Of a stretch of 24,862 bases of DNA, positions 5,398 to 24,862 are shown one piece after another. The notes under the pieces were generated by a model. That model saw only the letters and a list, made by a program, of their open reading frames with translations, was not told the DNA's origin and made no database searches. A program made the translations under genes and the position numbers. The DNA comes from a virus: positions 1 to 24,862 of IMG/VR virus record IMGVR_UViG_3300035698_017715. One strand, 5' to 3'. Every line of letters starts with the position of its first letter. Position 1 is the first letter of the stretch.

Positions 5398-5778
5398 ATG
5401 AAAATGCTAATTACATATGAAAGCGGAATGCTTCCAGCTCTGCTTGAAGCTCTCAAAGAATTCAGGCTAGAAGTTGACGAGATACGAGATACAGCTAATC
5501 ACAGAGGTGTTTTTGTTAATGGCACTGAAGAGCAGAAGTTGAAGTTGGAAGACTTAGCATACGTCGTTAATGTAGCCAGAGTGGTTCTGGATACAGGGTA
5601 TGTCCCTCCAGAGCCTTCAGCTATTGATGAGACTGTAACTCCAGCTACTGATGAGCCACCTCTTCAAACGCTCTCATTTACTAATAATGAATTGCAGCAG
5701 TTTACCGACCTCATCTGCTTGCTCAAAAAGAAGCTTGATGATACGATCGGAATACCGAAAGAGATACTAAATGGCTAA
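5398..5778 (+). CDS. Hypothetical protein upstream of the packaging genes (126 aa)
   Basis: It begins at ATG 5398, ten bases after the large inverted repeat; no clear ribosome-binding site is visible, and ATG 5404 is an alternative. The N-terminal half looks like a small alpha/beta unit (residues 1-70). A Pro/Thr/Glu-rich linker (about 74-95) leads to a helical C-terminus (NELQQFTDLICLLKKKLDD). It overlaps the C2H2-finger gene by eight bases, so it probably belongs to the packaging operon. Function unknown. Confidence 0.65.
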   Translation: MKMLITYESGMLPALLEALKEFRLEVDEIRDTANHRGVFVNGTEEQKLKLEDLAYVVNVARVVLDTGYVPPEPSAIDETVTPATDEPPLQTLSFTNNELQQFTDLICLLKKKLDDTIGIPKEILNG

Positions 5779-6685
5779 ACGATATCCATGTCCTCATTGT
5801 GACCGCGATTTTGCACTGCCTGGACACTTGGGCAGACATATGAAAGCGAAACACCCCGCCCCTCCTGACCAGGGTAACCCCAAACAAAACGAGTCTGACA
5901 AGAAGAAGACAGAGAAGATTGATCCCAGAGCAGTCAATACAATAACAAAAGAGGCTGCCGCAAAGTCCACTACTGGTGAGTTGGAGTGTCCTTTTTGCAA
6001 AGCAAAATACAAATCTCAGTCTGCATTACATGTTCACATTCAGAATAAGCACAAAACAGAAGCGAATCTCACTTCACATAATCTTATAAAGGTGTTGGAA
6101 AGTAAGAAAACTGTGAGTGATATGCTTGTTGCTGTCTCTGAGTGGATACAAAGTGGGAATATGTATTCAGAAACTTTGCCTGTACAAGTTGTAAATTTCC
6201 TTAGAAAAGAAGATGCGAGACTTCAGTTAGCATTGAGAATGATTGCTATACTCAAGGTGCAGAGAGTATTGGATCTCAACACTAAAGTAACTGATCTGGA
6301 TTCACTCTATCGAGAGAAGATGAATAAACCAGAGTGGCGTGATCAAGTTGATCTTGATGAACTTGCTCGACGTATTGATTTCTTACACAACAATATGAGA
6401 GACGAGTTGGCGTTCTTGAAAGAGATATCGCAACTCAATCAGATTGATTTGGCAGGTGTTATTGATAAGTTGACACAGGCTTTTGGTACAGCAGCGTTTG
6501 ATGGAAAGGCAACAGGTGTAGTGAATACGCCGTCAGGTGTTCGGTTACCTGAGTCGGCGCCAGAGCGTGAATTGTTACGTAGACTCATAACAAACTTAGC
6601 ATTGGATGATTATGTCGATGAACTTGGCGGAGGAGCTAGCGAGATTACCGCCGAATCTGAGACAGACAATGACGGAAATAGTTGA
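5771..6685 (+). CDS. Two-C2H2-zinc-finger protein, candidate small terminase subunit or packaging adaptor
   Basis: 304 residues. Two classical C2H2 fingers are visible: C7-x2-C10-x12-H23-x4-H28, and C73-x2-C76-x12-H89-x4-H94. Both have the expected hydrophobic positions (DRDFALPGHLGRH; KAKYKSQSALHVH). They are joined by a Lys/Asp/Glu/Pro-rich linker. The remaining ~210 residues are helical and charged (for example DLDELARRIDFLHNNMRDEL), ending in an acidic tail. C2H2 fingers are uncommon in phages. The position directly before, and overlapping, the large terminase gene is where the DNA-recognising small terminase subunit usually lies, which motivates the call; no sequence match to that family is claimed. 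Fingers plus a helical oligomerisation region would suit DNA-site recognition. Confidence 0.6.
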   Translation: MAKRYPCPHCDRDFALPGHLGRHMKAKHPAPPDQGNPKQNESDKKKTEKIDPRAVNTITKEAAAKSTTGELECPFCKAKYKSQSALHVHIQNKHKTEANLTSHNLIKVLESKKTVSDMLVAVSEWIQSGNMYSETLPVQVVNFLRKEDARLQLALRMIAILKVQRVLDLNTKVTDLDSLYREKMNKPEWRDQVDLDELARRIDFLHNNMRDELAFLKEISQLNQIDLAGVIDKLTQAFGTAAFDGKATGVVNTPSGVRLPESAPERELLRRLITNLALDDYVDELGGGASEITAESETDNDGNS

Positions 6686-8486
6686 CGAAGTTAGGCGTAC
6701 TGGAAATCTAAACATCATCAATGATTTGTACGCAGTCGACTATGATCGCATTCCTGTCTCACCTTCGGAGTTTCTTAATGGAGAGTACTATATTGGTAGC
6801 TCCGTGAAGTATCTCGCTGATGCTTGGAAAAAAGAATTTGATCTTATCTTTGCCCCTGACAGCAAGATTACAACACTTGTTTTGACGGGTGCTATTGGTA
6901 CAGGTAAGACTACGTTCGCTAGTGTGTGCGTAGCAAGAAAGATATTCGAATTATCCTGCCTCAAAGATCCTGCGCAGTTCTTTGGGTTGTTACCGAAGAC
7001 GAAGATCGTGTTTGGTATGTATAACATAACGTTAGACAAAGCAGGTGACATATCGCAGCTCATTGCTAACTATGTTGATACCAGTCCTTACTTTCAAGAG
7101 AATTGTCAACGAAAGATAAGACCTCAGTTTCCTATTACATTCCCCTCAAAGAACATTGAGATATCAGAGGGCAGTCTGGCATCACATTCCCTTGGTGATA
7201 ACGTGTTGGTTTTCGTAATTGATGAGGCGAACTTCTACAAGAAGTCAGGGCAGCTAGAGAATCCATTAGCGTACACTAGGGCGCATGAGCTATTTAACTC
7301 AGCTAGAACACGTCTTGTATCTCGATTCAAACGATTTGGCAAGGTGCCTGGTCTTGTTATCCTAATATCGTCGAAGAAGTTTCAGTCGAGTTTTTTGGAT
7401 CAGTTTTTAGAGAAAGTAGAGAAGATCCCAGAGCTTGCAGAGACAACAAGAATTATAGACTTTGCATTGTGGCAAACAAAAGATCCAAAGAACTATTGTG
7501 GCCAATCATTTGAAGTCTTGGTAGGATCTGAACAATACGATTCCAGAGTACTTGAAGAAGATGAGATCATTCCGGAAGATTGTGAGACTGTAAGGGTCCC
7601 AACTGAGCATTACGAAGACTTCCTACTTGATACAGATCTTGCCTTACGTGATATTGCAGGAGTGTCTACATCAGGTGCAAAAGCGTTCTTCCCTGCAAAG
7701 AGCAGATTGTTTCAGTGTGTCGATAAAACTAGGCAGCATCCGTTCACAAAGCTGTCAATAACACTACCCTTCAACAAAGAAGTGAGTGATCCAGGTGACG
7801 TGATAGGGACTATTTTCAATCACAAAGCTGTATGTACAATAATACATTCAAAGTGGGTTCCATTAGTAAACCCAGAGAAACAGCGATATGTGCATATTGA
7901 TATTGCTTATTCACAAGAGACGTTAGGTTTTTGTATGGGCCATAGTGTTACATTACCAAATGAGAAGTTGGGTGTCTATATTGATTTGATGCTCAGGGTC
8001 AAGCCACCAGTAATTGGTGAGATAGATTTGACTTGCCCTATCCTATTCTTGATGACGTTGAGGGATTATGGATTTAACATTGCAAAGGTTACGTTTGATC
8101 AATTTCAATCTCGTTTACCTATTCAGCATTTGGCTCGAGCAGGATTTAATCCAGAATTACTAAGTGCAAATTTGGCGATATGTAATCACGCAAAGATTTG
8201 TATCAACGAGCAGCGAGTGAGTATGTATCATTATCAGCCATTTTTACAGGAAGCAGGTAACCTACAAAAAGGTGACGAAGGTGATAGACCACATCATCCT
8301 CTAGGGGAAACAGATGATGTATGGGATGCAGTAGCAAGTGTTATCAGTCAATGCTACAAGGTTGAGCATGCAGTGAAGACATTTTCAAATAAGATGGCAA
8401 TACATTCTATTCAACCAAGAAACATCGGGACGCTTGTTGTGTCCACAAATGCATCACATGGTCAAGATGAATTTAGTATACATTGA
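6606..8486 (+). CDS. terL: Terminase large subunit (ATPase and nuclease)
   Basis: 626 residues, typical for the family. Walker A is at 95-103 (GAIGTGKTT) and Walker B at 202-208 (VFVIDEA), with the catalytic Glu. A coupling motif ILISSKK follows at about 252-258. The C-terminal RNase H-like nuclease shows D432 (HIDIAYS), D498 (FDQFQS) and D571/D574 (GETDDVWDAV). The protein would pump DNA through the portal and cut concatemers, using ATP. ATG 6606 gives an 80-base overlap with the C2H2-finger gene. ATG 6618 and ATG 6669 are possible later starts, with little help from ribosome-binding sites. All catalytic positions appear intact. Confidence 0.95.
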   Translation: MIMSMNLAEELARLPPNLRQTMTEIVDEVRRTGNLNIINDLYAVDYDRIPVSPSEFLNGEYYIGSSVKYLADAWKKEFDLIFAPDSKITTLVLTGAIGTGKTTFASVCVARKIFELSCLKDPAQFFGLLPKTKIVFGMYNITLDKAGDISQLIANYVDTSPYFQENCQRKIRPQFPITFPSKNIEISEGSLASHSLGDNVLVFVIDEANFYKKSGQLENPLAYTRAHELFNSARTRLVSRFKRFGKVPGLVILISSKKFQSSFLDQFLEKVEKIPELAETTRIIDFALWQTKDPKNYCGQSFEVLVGSEQYDSRVLEEDEIIPEDCETVRVPTEHYEDFLLDTDLALRDIAGVSTSGAKAFFPAKSRLFQCVDKTRQHPFTKLSITLPFNKEVSDPGDVIGTIFNHKAVCTIIHSKWVPLVNPEKQRYVHIDIAYSQETLGFCMGHSVTLPNEKLGVYIDLMLRVKPPVIGEIDLTCPILFLMTLRDYGFNIAKVTFDQFQSRLPIQHLARAGFNPELLSANLAICNHAKICINEQRVSMYHYQPFLQEAGNLQKGDEGDRPHHPLGETDDVWDAVASVISQCYKVEHAVKTFSNKMAIHSIQPRNIGTLVVSTNASHGQDEFSIH

Positions 8487-8610: not shown

Positions 8611-10404
8611 ATGCTCCACATTCAACCATTTAATATTCTCAGAAGTATTTTCACTCGAACAGATCAGCGAGGTAAGCCTTCACAACTTCAGATGCCAAAA
8701 GGCTTAGAGAATTTCGCTAAAATGTTAGCGGATCCTTTCGATATCTACGCTTCCTGGTATGGAAGTAAGATGTCGTTGATGAGAGATCGATATCAGTTGT
8801 ACAATGAATACGACTTGATGGATGAAGATGACATGATTGTTTCCGTGTTAGATTTGTACGCAGAAGATGCTACACAACGGGACATGTCTTCAAACAAAAC
8901 TATCTGGTTTGAATCAGAGAGTGCAGAGGTTGAGAAGATTGGAAACGCGATGCTCGAAGACATCGGCACAGAAGACAAAATATTTTCTATTGCAAGAGAA
9001 TTGGTAAAGTATGGTGATTCTTTTTCCGCGTTACTTCAGACAATAACAGATCAAGGTATGCCTGGTAAAGTTGTAGGGGTAATACCTGCTAATCCTCACG
9101 TTATGTCTCGTATTGAAGATACGAAAGGTACACTTACAGGTTTCAGAGTAGCTCCTATTGCGCAATCTGTTCAGTATATGGATAAGACTTCAAAAAATAC
9201 AGACCAAGCTCCTGACATTGATCCACCTTGGTGCTTTGTACATTTTAGGCTTCTTGGCAAGGATAGACGTAATATGTATGGCAGTTCATTCCTTCTACCT
9301 GCTCGTCGCCCTTATAGACGCTTTAGAATGGCAGAGGATGCACTCGTTCTTTACAGGCTAAAGCGGGCTCCTGATCGCCTAGTCCTATCTGTAAAGGGTT
9401 TGGATGGAATGTCGCCTGAAGATAGAGCTACTGCAATTAGACGAATACGACAAGAGCTAAGGAAGAATGCAGGTATTGATACAAGTACGGATCAGACAAA
9501 ACAAGATGTTAATCCCCTCTCAGTCGATGAAGATTTGATTGTTGATGAAAGTGCAATATCTGTAACCAAACTTAATGGATCGTCTCAAGTGAATGGGGTC
9601 ACAGATGTAGATTTTATCAGGAAGCGATTATTTGGAGCTTTGAAAGTACCAGCGGATTACATGGGGTTTGATGATGCAAAGAGTGGTTGGGTATCTAACA
9701 CGACACTCAGCTATCAGGATATCAATTTTGCTCGCATGGAGAAACGATTACAAACTTCTATTATGGAAGGGTTCTCATTGATGCTTCAAATCAATTTGAG
9801 CTGGCAGGGTATAGATCCGTCTGCCCCAGGGAATCGTTTCACAGTCCACATGAATCCTGTATCGGCACTCGATGAAACACAAAGGCTTGAAGTAGAGAAG
9901 GTCAGGCTCGATACAATAAATATTCTCAATGAAATTGGTAAATCTTTGGGTTTAGAGACAGAAGAATGGAGAGCGTATATACTTTCCCGCAGTAGGATAC
10001 CCACACATCTACTTAGGAAAAATGGCACTGGTGAAGTATCGACGATTCTGAAGGGTGAGATTCCTGTTGAAAGTAAAACAATTTCTGAAGCAAAAGAGAT
10101 TGAAATCAATTCCTTATTGGAATCTAAGTTGGAGCCAGATGCAAAACATGCTCTATATGATGCGATAACAAAAATACCGTCATTGTTTTCGACTAATGCA
10201 ATTCCAAATACATTCAAAAGTCAGAATTCACTTTCAGTCACAGAGCGTAATCTTATGGAGAGAATTCTTACTGAGCGACAGCTACCAATAGAAGGTCGTA
10301 CATATACTCCAATTGAAGATAAAGCTAATTTGATGCGAGCTACAGTTTCGTATTTAACTGAAGGAAAAAAGAAATCTGAAGAAGGAGAAACAGGTGATGA
10401 ATAG
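8611..10404 (+). CDS. Portal protein
   Basis: 597 residues, following the large terminase as usual. The segment around residues 70-95 (YNEYDLMDEDDMIVSVLDLY, then AEDATQRD) matches the conserved opening of T4 gp20-type portals. Later regions fit too: a capsid-facing core with the GPD-like surroundings DYMGFDDAKSGWVSNTTLS, and a charged C-terminal tail. Portals form a dodecameric ring at one head vertex, dock the terminase and later the neck. ATG 8611 has AAAGGG about eight bases upstream. The very C-terminus (GKKKSEEGETGDE) overlaps the start of the next small gene. No truncation is evident. Confidence 0.9.
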   Translation: MLHIQPFNILRSIFTRTDQRGKPSQLQMPKGLENFAKMLADPFDIYASWYGSKMSLMRDRYQLYNEYDLMDEDDMIVSVLDLYAEDATQRDMSSNKTIWFESESAEVEKIGNAMLEDIGTEDKIFSIARELVKYGDSFSALLQTITDQGMPGKVVGVIPANPHVMSRIEDTKGTLTGFRVAPIAQSVQYMDKTSKNTDQAPDIDPPWCFVHFRLLGKDRRNMYGSSFLLPARRPYRRFRMAEDALVLYRLKRAPDRLVLSVKGLDGMSPEDRATAIRRIRQELRKNAGIDTSTDQTKQDVNPLSVDEDLIVDESAISVTKLNGSSQVNGVTDVDFIRKRLFGALKVPADYMGFDDAKSGWVSNTTLSYQDINFARMEKRLQTSIMEGFSLMLQINLSWQGIDPSAPGNRFTVHMNPVSALDETQRLEVEKVRLDTINILNEIGKSLGLETEEWRAYILSRSRIPTHLLRKNGTGEVSTILKGEIPVESKTISEAKEIEINSLLESKLEPDAKHALYDAITKIPSLFSTNAIPNTFKSQNSLSVTERNLMERILTERQLPIEGRTYTPIEDKANLMRATVSYLTEGKKKSEEGETGDE

Positions 10405-10905: not shown

Positions 10906-11235
10906 GTGGATCGCAAAAGTTGTGTATATTGTAAGCTGCTTGAAAAGTTAACAAATCGTCGTTTCTATTTTGAATCAGACCATTTCGTAGTCGTTGAAAA
11001 TCTCTTCACGATGTCTCCAATCTTGGTGTCTACAAAACATGAATGCCTTGGGATACCAGTACAAGCTTTCCAAGTGATTTCTAACATCGCTACAAAGCTG
11101 TATGGAAAAGATTACAGTTTTTTGGTTACAAAACCAGAAGAACCTCATTACGCTATAAAGGTGGTGCAGCTGTCTTCTGAAACCGACCTTCTTCCTAATT
11201 CCCCTCCTATCCCAGAGCTTGAAATTACATTTTAA
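10906..11235 (+). CDS. HIT-like protein with degenerate catalytic motif
   Basis: GTG 10906 has an excellent AAGGAG six bases upstream, so I use it rather than the longer open frame, which overlaps the previous gene. The 109 residues follow the HIT-family layout: CVYCK at 6-10 (zinc knuckle seen in many HIT proteins), YFESDHFVVVENLF, then ILVSTKHE with H45. At the position of the catalytic HxHxH triad there is only H81 in PHYAIKVV. Nucleotide hydrolysis or transfer is therefore unlikely; a binding-only role is more plausible. Assignment rests on pattern recognition. Confidence 0.5.
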   Translation: MDRKSCVYCKLLEKLTNRRFYFESDHFVVVENLFTMSPILVSTKHECLGIPVQAFQVISNIATKLYGKDYSFLVTKPEEPHYAIKVVQLSSETDLLPNSPPIPELEITF

Positions 11236-11388
11236 CACAGTTCACAGCTCTACTTTTTACAAATTACTTGAACTATTTTAGTCTCAGCGTGGTTGTTAGT
11301 ACTACTTTATTGACACAGATGGTTTACAGTCGCGTCTTCTGGGCGCGCGGATTGAAACACGTTAACAATAACAGAAGGGTAAAACAAC
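11236..11388 (+). other. 153-base leader region before the GC-rich gene
   Basis: This non-coding gap precedes the isolated gene at 11389. It contains a perfect TTGACA hexamer at 11310-11315, but no good -10 element at 16-18 bases, so a standard promoter cannot be claimed. Its 3' part holds the CRISPR-repeat-like hairpin at 11329-11358, described separately, and an AGAAGGG ribosome-binding site before ATG 11389. No open frame of note is present. Confidence 0.5.
11329..11358 (+). ncRNA. Solitary CRISPR-repeat-like hairpin (type I-C-like)
   Basis: The 30-base element starts GTCGC and ends GGATTGAAAC, the hallmark ends of type I-C CRISPR repeats as I recall that family. Between them a stem pairs 11331-11336 (CGCGTC) with 11342-11347 (GGCGCG), including one G-U pair, over a five-base loop. 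The stem is followed by the single-stranded 3' handle, as in such repeats. Only one copy is present, with no spacer array or cas genes in the window. Known phage solitary repeat units act as RNA anti-CRISPRs by capturing host Cas proteins. Here it also lies 30 bases before a gene start, so it may instead, or also, be a leader hairpin. Confidence 0.5.
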
Positions 11389-11799
11389 ATGTCAAAGCAA
11401 AGTAGAATGAGTGTATTTGCCGGTTTTGCGGCAAGCAAATGGGTATGCCTGTGTGAAAGAGTCGAGCCTGCTAATGCAGTGGTTTGGACGTATCACGGCA
11501 TAGATCTGTTTCTCTCCGCTAATCATCTTAATACGGCTAATGTTGAGGTCGCTATTCAGGATAGCATAGACGGAACGACCTGGACGACTCGTTGGATTAG
11601 CACCGCGGCAATCGTCCCCGGTGGAGAGCAAAGCATTGCCGCTTATTTCAGCGGTACGCATGTTCGAGTCCTCGTGTATTCGACCGGTACCGGTCGTATC
11701 GATGGTACTGTGAACGTTCCCGAAGAGCAGGGTCTTGCCGCTCTTGACGTTTCCAATCCTACCTGCCAGACCTATTGCGAAGTTGCCGCAGAGAGCTAA
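11389..11799 (+). CDS. Probable abundant virion protein, beta-sandwich-like (136 aa)
   Basis: ATG 11389 has AGAAGGG upstream. The sequence alternates strand-like stretches with turns, including QDSIDGTTWT (57-66) and TGTGRIDGTVNV (100-111). The QxSxDGxTWT turn recurs as ESGDGGGTWT in the 22901-23254 protein, suggesting a shared fold. In three 60-base stretches I count 31, 36 and 32 G+C, well above the nearby gene at 10906 (19 of 60 in one stretch), with a C-ending codon preference. With its own leader hairpin and a strong stem-loop after the stop, it looks monocistronic and highly expressed, as capsid, decoration or tail-tube proteins often are. Family unassigned; recent acquisition is the alternative explanation for the composition. 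Confidence 0.65.
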   Translation: MSKQSRMSVFAGFAASKWVCLCERVEPANAVVWTYHGIDLFLSANHLNTANVEVAIQDSIDGTTWTTRWISTAAIVPGGEQSIAAYFSGTHVRVLVYSTGTGRIDGTVNVPEEQGLAALDVSNPTCQTYCEVAAES

Positions 11800-11824
11800 G
11801 CTTAGTCTTTGTTACGCGTCGCAT

Positions 11825-11879
11825 AGTTACGGTTTAGTGGCTGTCGGTTGATATTGCCGATAAGTGCTAAACCGTAACT
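11825..11879 (+). terminator. Strong stem-loop after the GC-rich gene, probable terminator
   Basis: Arms 11825-11837 (AGTTACGGTTTAG) and 11867-11879 (CTAAACCGTAACT) pair perfectly over 13 bp. Inside the loop, TGTCGG and CCGATA can add about six pairs, with one G-U. It starts 25 bases after the stop. The following bases are not a T-run, so factor-independent termination is not certain; mRNA 3'-end protection is another role. Confidence 0.6.
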
Positions 11880-11916
11880 TGCCTAAAAATTACCTAAATA
11901 CATGTCACTGAATTTG

Positions 11917-11957
11917 TGATAAAACTGTATTACACAGTTAATGTTCACACTTTATCA
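11917..11957 (+). promoter_or_regulatory. Nested inverted repeats before the membrane-anchored fibre-like gene
   Basis: TGATAAA (11917-11923) pairs with TTTATCA (11951-11957), and directly inside the left arm AACTGT (11923-11928) pairs with ACAGTT (11934-11939). The elements end about 15 bases before ATG 11973. They could form an mRNA hairpin or serve as an operator; nothing distinguishes these. Confidence 0.35.
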
Positions 11958-11972
11958 ATGAGGTTCTATAAC

Positions 11973-12683
11973 ATGAAGCGTAATATTTTTTCACGATTTG
12001 CTCCGTTGTTAATTCTAGGTTCTGTAGCAGTAATGTGTCTTGGGGCATACAAATATATTCTTGAGCTGGAACAAGATAAGTTTATTGATACTGCTTCAGG
12101 CGATACAGCAGTGCGGGCTGTGTTGTATACGGCCGGCGCAGGTTCTCCTACTGGCTCATTGACACAATTAGAGCAAAGAAAGTTTACAAATACAATAGGA
12201 GGGGACGTTGCTATCAGGATTGTTTTGCCTGATAGTACATATACTACAGGGACGCCTGTATACGTTGAATCAGATCCAGTTTGGTCGGCTGCAAGTAGCT
12301 TTTATTTAACAATACTTTCTGCGGCTTCAACATATGCAACTGGAACTCCGGTGTATGCTGAGTCAGATCCAGTGTGGAGTGCGGATAAAAGTAACTATGT
12401 AAAAACAAATGAGACTTTACCTACAAGTATGTTTCCAGATTGCGTGAATTATTACTACGTCAGTCCGTGTGGTGATGAGGCCAATTCAGGGCTTAATGAA
12501 AACAAACCGAAGCTCACCATTCAAGCGGCTGGTGATGAGGGTATCTATATTGGATCACGGTACAACCAGACAGCGGAAGGCATTCACGGTTTTATTCAGG
12601 ACGTACGAATCTACAATAAAGCGTGGACTGCAGACAAAACGCTCAACGAGTACGAGCAGGGTCGATTGAGTTTCAAGCATTGA
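11973..12683 (+). CDS. Membrane-anchored fibre-like mosaic protein
   Basis: I choose ATG 11973, which gives MKRN followed by a hydrophobic segment at about residues 8-26, over the longer frame from GTG 11916. GAGG lies ten bases upstream. After the anchor come two fibre-like repeats of the phrase TGTPVYxESDPVWSA. Next is YYVSPCGDEANSGLNENKPK, the usual opening of a pectate-lyase-type beta-helix, and then without the helix body a typical LamG/concanavalin-like ending (HGFIQDVRIYNKAWTADKTL). The last two parts look like the front of one domain joined to the back of another. Probably exported and surface-bound, or a virion fibre. The role is inferred from composition. Confidence 0.6.
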   Translation: MKRNIFSRFAPLLILGSVAVMCLGAYKYILELEQDKFIDTASGDTAVRAVLYTAGAGSPTGSLTQLEQRKFTNTIGGDVAIRIVLPDSTYTTGTPVYVESDPVWSAASSFYLTILSAASTYATGTPVYAESDPVWSADKSNYVKTNETLPTSMFPDCVNYYYVSPCGDEANSGLNENKPKLTIQAAGDEGIYIGSRYNQTAEGIHGFIQDVRIYNKAWTADKTLNEYEQGRLSFKH

Positions 12684-13512: not shown

Positions 13513-15129
13513 ATGAATCTTCGTAGTTTTTCTTTTGCAGTACTTGGCAGTTTATTGCTACTGTGTGCATCTTTCCGAAGTGTAGAAGCAGATCGATATA
13601 CAGATTTGAATAATGTACGTTTTTGGGGGAGTGTAACTACAGGAGCTTGGTCTTACGTAGACGGAATCTCTGCTAATCTTACAAATGATGCAACGTACGG
13701 TACGTATTCAAATGGTGCTTACGCTTTCGAATATCGTCTTCAAGCAACAAATGGTGCTGGAGCTATTGCTATATCGACTAACATAGCTATTTCTTTTACG
13801 GGTAACGCGACAACAAACGCTGTACACTTGCGTTGGACTAGGTACGACCGTATAAGTGCTTACTTCGTTTCTAAATCGTATGACGCCGGCGTAAACTGGA
13901 CAAATTACTATCGTCTAGGCGCTGATGTAACACAGTTATTTGATTACGCGTATACGGATTGGACAGACGGATCAAATACATTTTCAAGTATACCAAGTTC
14001 AACGTACCCATGGGCTAGTTTAGACGTTGTCCCAACAAATACAGACGAACTTCCAGAGGGGCTTACAAACTTCTATTTTACTGATGCCCATCTCCTTATA
14101 AGTGCGCCCTTTATAAGTTTGTCTAACATAGTGTTTGATCTTAGCAATTTCGCCGATACAAATCGGATTTGGATCGGCGTTATATCAAATCAAGTAGTTG
14201 CCAACTCCGGGGCCATTGACACAAATCAGACCAATATCGGAATCAACTCCGGGGCCATTGACACAAATCAGACCAATATCGGAATCAACTCCGGGGCCAT
14301 TGACACAAATCAGACCAATATCGGAATCAACTCCGGGGCCATTGACACAAATCAGACAACAATTGCGGTGCACGCTTCGCGTATAATCTCATATTACTCG
14401 TTCGTGGATTCATCGACGAACTACCTTTATTTCACAAATAACATATTGTATTATTGTGATACCAATAGTGGCGGATCGGGTGTTGCAACGGCACAATCGC
14501 CTATGACTAACACAGTTGATGCAGATTCCCACGGATTCTCTAATGTAACTTCTATCGTATTTACCAATGCTAATGGGACAGTGGATGATTGGTATGTGTT
14601 CACTCATTCAGCGGCAGGTGCTATAGCAATTGGGCAAAGCGAAGATGTCAATAAAGCTATGTTTTATCTTGCTCCGAAAGGAGGAGGGAGTATTGGTTCG
14701 AACGATTATTCACAGACATTTGAATTCAAAGAGAATGTAAATGTTTTGGGTGATTTGAATGTTAGTAGTAATCTAATTGTTGATGGCATTTTGAGTGGGA
14801 ATGGGTCTGGTCTGACTAACTCCCGACCGTATCAAAAGTTTACAACACTCTTGACTCCCGATGAGGGGGGAACCTGTACCGTGACGTATGCTATGGGAAG
14901 TTTGATAGGCATCTACGCTTTGACAAATATGACAATCGCTTTTGATTCATCTGGGTATGCGACAAGCGGAGTATCGAGAGTAGGTGTAGAAATATGGGCA
15001 TGGACCAACGAGATTGCGTTTGATTCCACAACTATTACGAATGCAACAGCACCTACTGTCCTAAGTAATGATTGGACTTCTATGTTCTTTAGACGGGCTG
15101 GGGATAAGTTATGGAAAGGGCGCGATTAA
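13513..15129 (+). CDS. Tail-fibre-like protein with signal peptide and 14-residue tandem repeats
   Basis: 538 residues. An N-terminal export signal (hydrophobic core about 8-18, likely cleavage after residue 26 in SVEA) is unusual for a virion fibre. Fibre phrases follow: TDELPEGLTNFYFTDAHLL at about 176-194, four copies of a 14-residue unit NSGAIDTNQTNIGI (near 231-282), and LNVSSNLIVDGILSGNGSG near 415-435, the common fibre shaft-to-knob link. The tandem unit suggests a trimeric coiled or beta-structured shaft whose length could vary. It is either a virion fibre carrying a signal-like anchor, or an exported adhesin made during infection. The next gene starts immediately after the stop. Confidence 0.7.
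   Translation: MNLRSFSFAVLGSLLLLCASFRSVEADRYTDLNNVRFWGSVTTGAWSYVDGISANLTNDATYGTYSNGAYAFEYRLQATNGAGAIAISTNIAISFTGNATTNAVHLRWTRYDRISAYFVSKSYDAGVNWTNYYRLGADVTQLFDYAYTDWTDGSNTFSSIPSSTYPWASLDVVPTNTDELPEGLTNFYFTDAHLLISAPFISLSNIVFDLSNFADTNRIWIGVISNQVVANSGAIDTNQTNIGINSGAIDTNQTNIGINSGAIDTNQTNIGINSGAIDTNQTTIAVHASRIISYYSFVDSSTNYLYFTNNILYYCDTNSGGSGVATAQSPMTNTVDADSHGFSNVTSIVFTNANGTVDDWYVFTHSAAGAIAIGQSEDVNKAMFYLAPKGGGSIGSNDYSQTFEFKENVNVLGDLNVSSNLIVDGILSGNGSGLTNSRPYQKFTTLLTPDEGGTCTVTYAMGSLIGIYALTNMTIAFDSSGYATSGVSRVGVEIWAWTNEIAFDSTTITNATAPTVLSNDWTSMFFRRAGDKLWKGRD
14203..14357 (+). repeat. Tandem 42-base repeat, 3.7 copies, in the fibre gene
   Basis: Units start at 14203, 14245, 14287 and 14329; each begins AACTCCGGGGCCATTGACAC. 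The first three appear identical and the fourth diverges after 29 bases. The 42-base period preserves the reading frame, so slippage would lengthen or shorten the fibre shaft by 14 residues. Confidence 0.9.
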
Positions 15130-23266: not shown

Positions 23267-23950
23267 ATGGAAACAACAAAAAGAAGCATGCGTGACCAAC
23301 GGAAGCTTAGAATTCAGGAATTAGGCGTCGGCCTCCCTGAATGGATATACAAAGCTCACATCGCTAAGCCAGAATCAAAACAAGACATTTTACCCGATCG
23401 TGCTAGTCCAGATTCAATTGTTTGGAAAAAAGGTACTTGGGTAGACGGCGTTTGGAAGATTGGTCATTGGAAAAACGGCACTTGGATAAATGGTATATGG
23501 GAGAACGGTCTTTGGGAAAATGGCATTTGGGAGGACGGTCTTTGGGTAACTGGTGCTTGGAAAGATGGTAAGTGGGAAGACGGTGTTTGGAAAAATGGTC
23601 GTTGGAGTGATGGTACTTGGGGAGGCGGCGTTTGGGATCAAGGTTCTTGGTTTGATGGTACTTGGGATGAAGGGGATTGGAATCATGGTATTTGGCATGA
23701 TGGTGTTTGGAATGATGGTACTTGGAAAGACGGTACTTGGAAAGACGGCACTTGGTATAATGGTACTTGGGAGAAAGGTAGAATTTGGGATTCGAGCCTT
23801 AACAAGCTGGTCTTTTCCAAAGTCTCCCCCGCAGAATATTTTGCCGGAAAACAAGAATCTCTCAATTCAAAGACTTCGGCTTTAATTGAACGAGCAATTG
23901 ACAAAATGCTAAAGGAAAAGGATTATGAACGTAACAGTGACGTCAGCTGA
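23267..23950 (+). CDS. Trp-Gly pentad repeat protein A
   Basis: 227 residues. A charged N-terminal ~51 residues (with LPEWIYKAH) leads into 24 consecutive five-residue units of the form x-W-x-x-G (residues about 52-171). Typical units are TWKDG, VWKNG and IWENG. The fixed five-residue Trp/Gly period suggests a regular beta-solenoid or stacked-aromatic structure, possibly binding glycans. The C-terminus carries SPAEYFAGKQE and then LIERAIDKMLKEKD, elements shared respectively with the second repeat protein and with the intervening gene. It overlaps the next gene by 26 bases. I know no established function for this repeat; a tail or fibre component is a guess. Confidence 0.7.
   Translation: METTKRSMRDQRKLRIQELGVGLPEWIYKAHIAKPESKQDILPDRASPDSIVWKKGTWVDGVWKIGHWKNGTWINGIWENGLWENGIWEDGLWVTGAWKDGKWEDGVWKNGRWSDGTWGGGVWDQGSWFDGTWDEGDWNHGIWHDGVWNDGTWKDGTWKDGTWYNGTWEKGRIWDSSLNKLVFSKVSPAEYFAGKQESLNSKTSALIERAIDKMLKEKDYERNSDVS
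23420..23779 (+). repeat. Tandem 15-base repeat, 24 units (xWxxG)
   Basis: Every 15 bases carry TGG for Trp, and a GGN Gly codon closes each unit, often as GGTACTTGGAAAGAC. Units are variable between copies, so the array looks old and under selection at the protein level. The antisense strand is open throughout only because of the repeat. Confidence 0.9.
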
Positions 23951-24270: not shown

Positions 24271-24862
24271 ATGCCGACAAACAAAGAACTTCCAGCTTGG
24301 GTCACCGCAGCAGAAACACAACAAGTAGAATTTAGATATACAAATAAAGGTGTTTTTGTATGGGAAAATGGTACTTGGGAAAATGGTGTTTGGAAAGATG
24401 GTGTTTGGGATTATGGTACCTGGTACAAAGGTACTTGGAAAGATGGTGTTTGGAATAACGGTTGGTGGAACGATGGGACATGGACAACAGGATGGTGGAA
24501 AAACGGTCAGTGGCACGGCGGCACTTGGGGTGGCGGTCTTTGGAGAGACGGTCAGTGGAAAGATGGTGTTTGGAATCAAGGTTCTTGGGAGGGTGGTACT
24601 TGGGAGGGCGGTACTTGGCATGTAGGTATCTGGGATGACGGTGTTTGGCGGGATGGTGTTTGGAAGAATGGTGTTTGGAAAGGGGGGCTTTGGGAACGCG
24701 GTACTTGGGAGGCTGGTGAGTGGCAGGGTGGTACGTGGAAAAAGGGCAAAATCTACGATCCAGACAAAAACGGTAATTTCAAGCCTGATTGGGAATGGGA
24801 AGGTAATTATGTCCATTCCCCCATCTCCCCCAAAGAATACTTTGCCGGAAAACAAGAAGCTC
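24271..24862 (+). CDS. Trp-Gly pentad repeat protein B (truncated by window end)
   Basis: ATG 24271 begins a frame that runs past the right edge. After 29 residues (starting MPTNKELPAWVTAAE) come 26 x-W-x-x-G units (bases 24358-24747). A non-repeat segment follows (IYDPDKNGNFKPDWEWEGNY), then SPISPKEYFAGKQE, nearly identical to the post-repeat motif of protein A. A shared LIERAIDK tail may therefore follow beyond the window. The gene appears to be a diverged tandem duplicate of 23267-23950, with the small helical gene between. Confidence 0.75.
   Translation, partial: MPTNKELPAWVTAAETQQVEFRYTNKGVFVWENGTWENGVWKDGVWDYGTWYKGTWKDGVWNNGWWNDGTWTTGWWKNGQWHGGTWGGGLWRDGQWKDGVWNQGSWEGGTWEGGTWHVGIWDDGVWRDGVWKNGVWKGGLWERGTWEAGEWQGGTWKKGKIYDPDKNGNFKPDWEWEGNYVHSPISPKEYFAGKQEA
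24358..24747 (+). repeat. Tandem 15-base repeat, 26 units (xWxxG)
   Basis: Same unit logic as 23420-23779, with more W-W and G-G variants (WWNDG, WEGG-type). Copies differ from one another and from the first array, so the two arrays diverged after duplication or are maintained independently. Confidence 0.9.

Follow-up and report, generated by a model that had tools for sequence, protein, structure and literature searches.

Type I-C CRISPR repeats are processed by Cas5d, which cleaves each one at the foot of its hairpin, so that an 11-nt 5' handle remains (PMC5965380, PMC3890593). Phages can turn such repeats against their host: RNA anti-CRISPRs (Racrs), which phages produce as mimics of CRISPR repeats, sequester Cas proteins (PMC10651486). 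RacrIC1, a single I-C repeat in a Bifidobacterium pseudocatenulatum prophage, is encoded on one transcript with acrIC5, was found experimentally to inhibit I-C immunity and re-enabled phage infection of a strain carrying an I-C system (PMC10651486). The SRUFinder screen reported 2,103 solitary repeat units (SRUs) on viral sequences, and among prophage SRUs in hosts with cas genes, 83% have a host that carries the matching CRISPR subtype (PMC10651486). Two other systems share part of this architecture. Viral CRISPR mini-arrays also place a host-type repeat on a virus, with two or more repeats around a spacer, while the crRNA-like RNAs CreR and CreA are likewise single repeat-like RNAs outside an array, and need a guide that partly matches a promoter.

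The window analysed here is a linear fragment of a virus record, 24,862 bases in length. It contains a T4-like portal gene at 8611-10404 (Pfam Portal_T4 E=3.7e-44; PHROG portal), in line with the original prediction that the repeat lies in a phage. The top tblastn matches between the window and sequenced phages are only ~26% identical. A 30-mer, GTCGCGTCTTCTGGGCGCGCGGATTGAAAC, is located at 11329-11358 (+) in a 153-nt intergenic region bounded by an ORF end at 11235 and an ORF start at 11389. It has no second copy in the window, even when 3 mismatches are tolerated, and 0 copies are expected from shuffles. Its GC content is 63% compared to 34% for the remaining intergenic region, and the lone, GC-rich element with a GTCGC start noticed at the outset is thus borne out. 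The features of the locus are as follows.

11329-11358, plus strand: solitary type I-C-like CRISPR repeat (SRU and candidate Racr); single copy, covariance model match, 28/31 identity to the end repeat of a Chromatiales array.
11331-11347, plus strand: hairpin of 7 pairs (C3-G19 to U9-G13) with loop UCU, from folding; the expected Cas5d recognition stem.
11348-11358, plus strand: 11-nt single-stranded tail CGGATTGAAAC, equivalent to the I-C crRNA 5' handle, from the sequence and the Cas5d literature (PMC3890593, PMC5965380).
11317-11365, plus strand: possible extended helix between upstream flank and handle, from folding; weak and post hoc.
11359-11388, plus strand: rest of the leader of the next gene, with a Shine-Dalgarno-like AGAAGG.
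11389-11799, plus strand: ORF of 136 aa, GC 51%, 3' of the element; possibly beta-rich (AF2 pLDDT 42, low confidence).
11825-11879, plus strand: perfect 13-bp inverted repeat 3' of this ORF, a possible transcription unit end; not scored as an intrinsic terminator.

The element is laid out as a GTCGC start, a GC hairpin and a tail that begins at the stem base. The stem ends at 11347 and the tail is exactly 11 nt, hence Cas5d would be predicted to cut between 11347 and 11348. RNA folding gives -9.7 kcal/mol for the element, with an isolated G1-C20 pair besides the seven-pair hairpin and its 3-nt loop. The six-pair stem and five-base loop described originally correspond to this hairpin with its last U-G pair unformed. 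The 19-nt hairpin by itself has a folding z of -2.9, while that of the full 30-mer is unremarkable (z -1.2). The first base of the handle is C in the element and T in arrays; the same C is present in 13 of 108 solitary viral repeats (window's counted in) among the matches listed. Pairing of the upstream flank with the handle was matched in 9 of 500 flank shuffles. This deserves little weight, because the total energy of the helix is ordinary and was reached in 346 of 2000 shuffles.

Beyond what had been predicted, 30 nt separate the element from the ATG of ORF 11389-11799, which puts it in a likely leader with the Shine-Dalgarno-like site in between, and such placement recurs (see below). The ORF itself has no family match and no relatives in viral contigs or phages.

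The identity of the repeat was established by two routes. A scan of GTDB genomes with the framework GTCGCGTCTTC-N0-4-GGGCGCGNGGATTGAAAC yielded one matching locus, an array in a Chromatiales MAG (JALSGT010000120.1, hereafter L002) with the repeat GTCGCGCCTTCACGGGCGCGTGGATTGAAAC and a degenerate end copy GTCGCGTCTTCACGGGCGCGTGGATTGAAAC. The latter is the closest repeat found, identical to the element in 28 of 31 columns (90.3%), compared to ~87% for the main array repeat. The GTCGCGTCTTC..GGGCGCGNGGATTGAAAC framework is common to both, whereas the L002 repeat is 31 nt long and occurs 19 times in its array, and the phage element is 30 nt and single; in the phage copy, T replaces AC within the loop and C replaces T within the handle. 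Furthermore, a covariance model (R1) was built from 14 array repeats, with the window left out of training. It matches 11329-11358 over the full length with 27.6 bits and E=3.8e-6, the runner-up in the window having E=0.39 (E-values are rough); arrays score 45-49 bits. Long arrays marked by this model lie beside cas5d in 4 of 7 genomic regions examined (L225, L226, L230 and L231), and the family is therefore type I-C by tested association. Cas5d loci with short flanks displayed no arrays, which appeared once the regions were widened. The repeat is likewise in agreement with the I-C repeat published for Bacillus halodurans (PMC3890593), and the motif GTCGC-N8-16-GCGNGGATTGAAAC had 0 occurrences in 300 dinucleotide shuffles of the window. 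No Rfam family matches the element, and neither the exact element nor close variants were found in viral contigs. The element hence belongs to the type I-C repeat family, and both the I-C-like assignment and the similarity to a CRISPR repeat family expected from the sequence stand. A single degenerate I-C repeat was also seen ~400 nt 5' of cas3 (L225:6300-6332), co-oriented with the cas3-cas5d-cas8c-cas7-cas4-cas1 operon and array, and is a candidate CreR-like regulator.

Within 100 nt on either side there is neither another repeat nor part of one (the local score, 0.50 of repeat length, does not exceed that of shuffles). No Cas5d match was found within the 24.9-kb fragment, and PADLOC gave no credible match in ten proteins. 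The repeat is thus lone and without spacers or cas genes as claimed, a description that covers the 24.9-kb fragment; the rest of the phage may hold a further copy or cas genes. It has no full or partial repeat within 100 bp and is intergenic, as are SRUs, and it reaches the identity (>=90%) and coverage (>=90%) asked of them, at 90.3% over 31 columns against the degenerate L002 end repeat. Where the comparison with published solitary repeats proposed at the outset falls short is the BLAST bit score, which is 30.2 against the SRUFinder cut-off of 41.1 (PMC10651486); this value derives from the repeats collected here, a smaller set than the published database of 17,823. The published screen may have overlooked the element, its bit score being under the cut-off. 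Unlike a mini-array, the locus does not hold two or more repeats flanking a spacer.

To place the element in a wider class, IMG/VR viral contigs were scanned with GTCGC-N8-16-GCGNGGATTGAAAC, giving at least 120 stretches, to which an SRUFinder-like flank test for solitariness was applied. Among the matches listed, at least 108 (window's counted in) are solitary and at least 95 have a stem of 5 or more pairs; solitary I-C repeats are common in IMG/VR. They avoid genes, with 22 of 95 inside ORFs of at least 150 aa compared to 69 expected at random positions among the matches listed. After deduplication, a gene start with ribosome-binding site lies within 60 nt downstream for 21 of 91 in the sense direction and 7 in the opposite one. 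Orientation bias persists without the window for gene starts (20 vs 7, p=0.019) and for co-oriented upstream ORF ends (42 vs 19, p=0.004; 43 vs 19 with it), and is also seen for terminator-like hairpins within 100 nt downstream (12 in sense vs 2, p=0.013), all among the matches listed, with p-values that are indicative, as the tests share data and rely on simple ORF calls. Because they avoid ORFs and share the sense of nearby gene starts, ORF ends and terminators, solitary repeats look like transcribed RNA elements, which suggests that they are read as RNA in their own sense.

Two layouts are suggested by these positions, a unit closed by a terminator and a repeat within a gene leader. The clearest terminator-closed cases are L066 and L232, and leader-type cases comprise the window, L005, L009, L017, L031, L064, L097 and L235. 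About a fifth of the class among the matches listed (~20 of 91) lies 10-60 nt 5' of a gene start in sense, as in the window. The genes downstream of leader-type repeats are mutually unrelated and include portal, sigma factor, head decoration and SbcC-like proteins; no shared function was found for them. Across the 91 repeats among the matches listed, native flanks preserve the hairpin no better than shuffled flanks. In L066 (508-539) and L232 (1054-1085), from two different metagenomes, an identical I-C repeat has an intrinsic terminator 17 nt downstream, making repeat and terminator a candidate compact Racr gene. One phage contig (IMGVR_UViG_3300031673_000079; L021 and L031) carries one I-C repeat in three identical copies scattered across 2.7 kb, at about 9272, 11329 and 11926 of the contig, each copy solitary and one of them 24 nt 5' of a gene start.

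We consider it probable, with moderate confidence, that the phage carries the element, a solitary type I-C repeat, as an RNA decoy (Racr). Its sequence, hairpin, 11-nt handle, solitariness and family link to cas5d-adjacent arrays are direct observations, and judged by them it carries the parts needed for a RacrIC1-type mechanism. In this model, sense transcription would make the element part of the ORF 11389-11799 leader. If the host has a type I-C system, its Cas5d would bind the hairpin, cleave between 11347 and 11348 and remain on the hairpin, while Cas5d and Cas7 would take up the handle-bearing downstream RNA. Cas proteins would thus be diverted into useless complexes, away from the phage-targeting Cascade. 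The full-length R1 match, from the same model that marks cas5d-adjacent arrays in 4 of 7 genomes, argues for the decoy, as do the tail of exactly the length that Cas5d processing requires and, among the matches listed, the class-wide ORF avoidance and sense orientation. RacrIC1 provides the experimental precedent, being of the same I-C subtype with Cas5 doing the processing, and like the element it is a single repeat carried by a phage in the orientation of a neighbouring gene. The arrangement differs in that RacrIC1, of proven activity, lies 11 nt 3' of acrIC5, whereas the window's candidate lies 5' of ORF 11389-11799, with no acr gene recognised nearby. Against the decoy, a search of 11200-12000 for sigma-70-like promoters and intrinsic terminators found neither (it would miss promoters of phage or non-sigma-70 type), native flanks give no hairpin advantage over the 91 repeats, the element is diverged in score, in its handle base and in length, and it is missing in the nearest 80 portal relatives. 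The initial observation is hence confirmed and its reading as an RNA anti-CRISPR is reasonable and partly supported, as the best-supported function, with the activity itself predicted from sequence. The Racr mode, a recent discovery, is already known, and the element looks like a further, candidate example. If active, it would show that RNA anti-CRISPRs also occur in a phage whose portal is T4-like and which lacks close relatives in databases, in an element possibly too diverged for the published screen.

The position 30 nt 5' of the ATG also fits a Cas5d-responsive leader, in which host Cas5d would cut or bind the hairpin and alter the stability or translation of the ORF 11389-11799 mRNA, such that a phage gene senses the CRISPR state of its host. 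The Shine-Dalgarno-like site between element and ATG would stay on the 3' cleavage product, and the recurrence of this placement among the matches listed (~20 of 91) is consistent with such a role. In contrast, the unrelated downstream genes provide no shared regulated function, and 12 other solitary repeats among the matches listed have a terminator-like hairpin downstream instead. We regard this explanation as unlikely on balance; it could coexist with the decoy role, the two being compatible and not separable by sequence. A broader version, in which recurrent phage genes carry an I-C repeat in the mRNA 5' leader that is cut by host Cas5d, both releasing a decoy and setting downstream expression, with the window's element as one member, is quite doubtful. 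If true, such a class would tie a phage gene to the CRISPR activity of the host. The leader layout predicts Cas5d cutting of phage mRNAs at defined sites, and this placement, adopted by about a fifth of the class among the matches listed, is the part most worth experiment.

The divergence of the repeat would also suit a fragment of a host CRISPR array, either a non-functional leftover or one acquired recently. The portal sequence alone found no relatives, while a portal alignment search found 80; the element is missing from the nearest 80 as far as stored flanks reach, and 0.68 Mb of portal-relative DNA contained one weak R1 match (E=0.36). This absence and the lack of folding advantage from native flanks (91 repeats among the matches listed) are compatible with a remnant. 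However, neither a second nor a partial repeat is nearby, both hairpin and handle are intact, and the class is biased to sense orientation and away from ORFs among the matches listed, making a remnant improbable. No host is claimed, because the Chromatiales repeat was present in 1 of 398 genomes sampled from its phylum (the L002 MAG itself) and in no plasmid, and that MAG has no Cas5d match.

A CreR/CreA-like guide, in which the repeat and following bases form a crRNA-like RNA directing host Cascade to repress a promoter, is very unlikely. Such RNAs occur in type I systems (PMC12737573) and a solitary repeat is found 5' of cas3 in L225, but a PAM-adjacent seed match in the window was no better than for shuffled pseudo-spacers. 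Finally, a hairpin with an accidental CRISPR-like 3' end would agree with the unexceptional strength of the whole 30-mer, yet the E-value in the window, the motif's absence from 300 shuffles (some first-reader selection allowed for) and the single weak match in portal-relative DNA render chance unlikely, indeed extremely so.

The remainder of the window has several unusual genes. A 626-aa protein with a GAIGTGKT Walker-type motif is encoded immediately 5' of the portal gene (6606-8486); it is the probable large terminase, not picked up by PHROGs or Pfam, and its L145 counterpart (688 aa) occupies the same position relative to the portal. A phage protein at 5771-6685 contains two C2H2-type zinc fingers (Pfam, above cut-off), unusual in phage. 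An TNQTNIGINSGAID tandem repeat is located at 14185-14386 within a presumed fibre protein (ORF 13513-15129). Two ORFs, 23267-23950 and 24271-24861, are built from short tandem G-x-W-x-x-G-x-W-type units and share an SPxEYFAGKQE stretch as a common ending.
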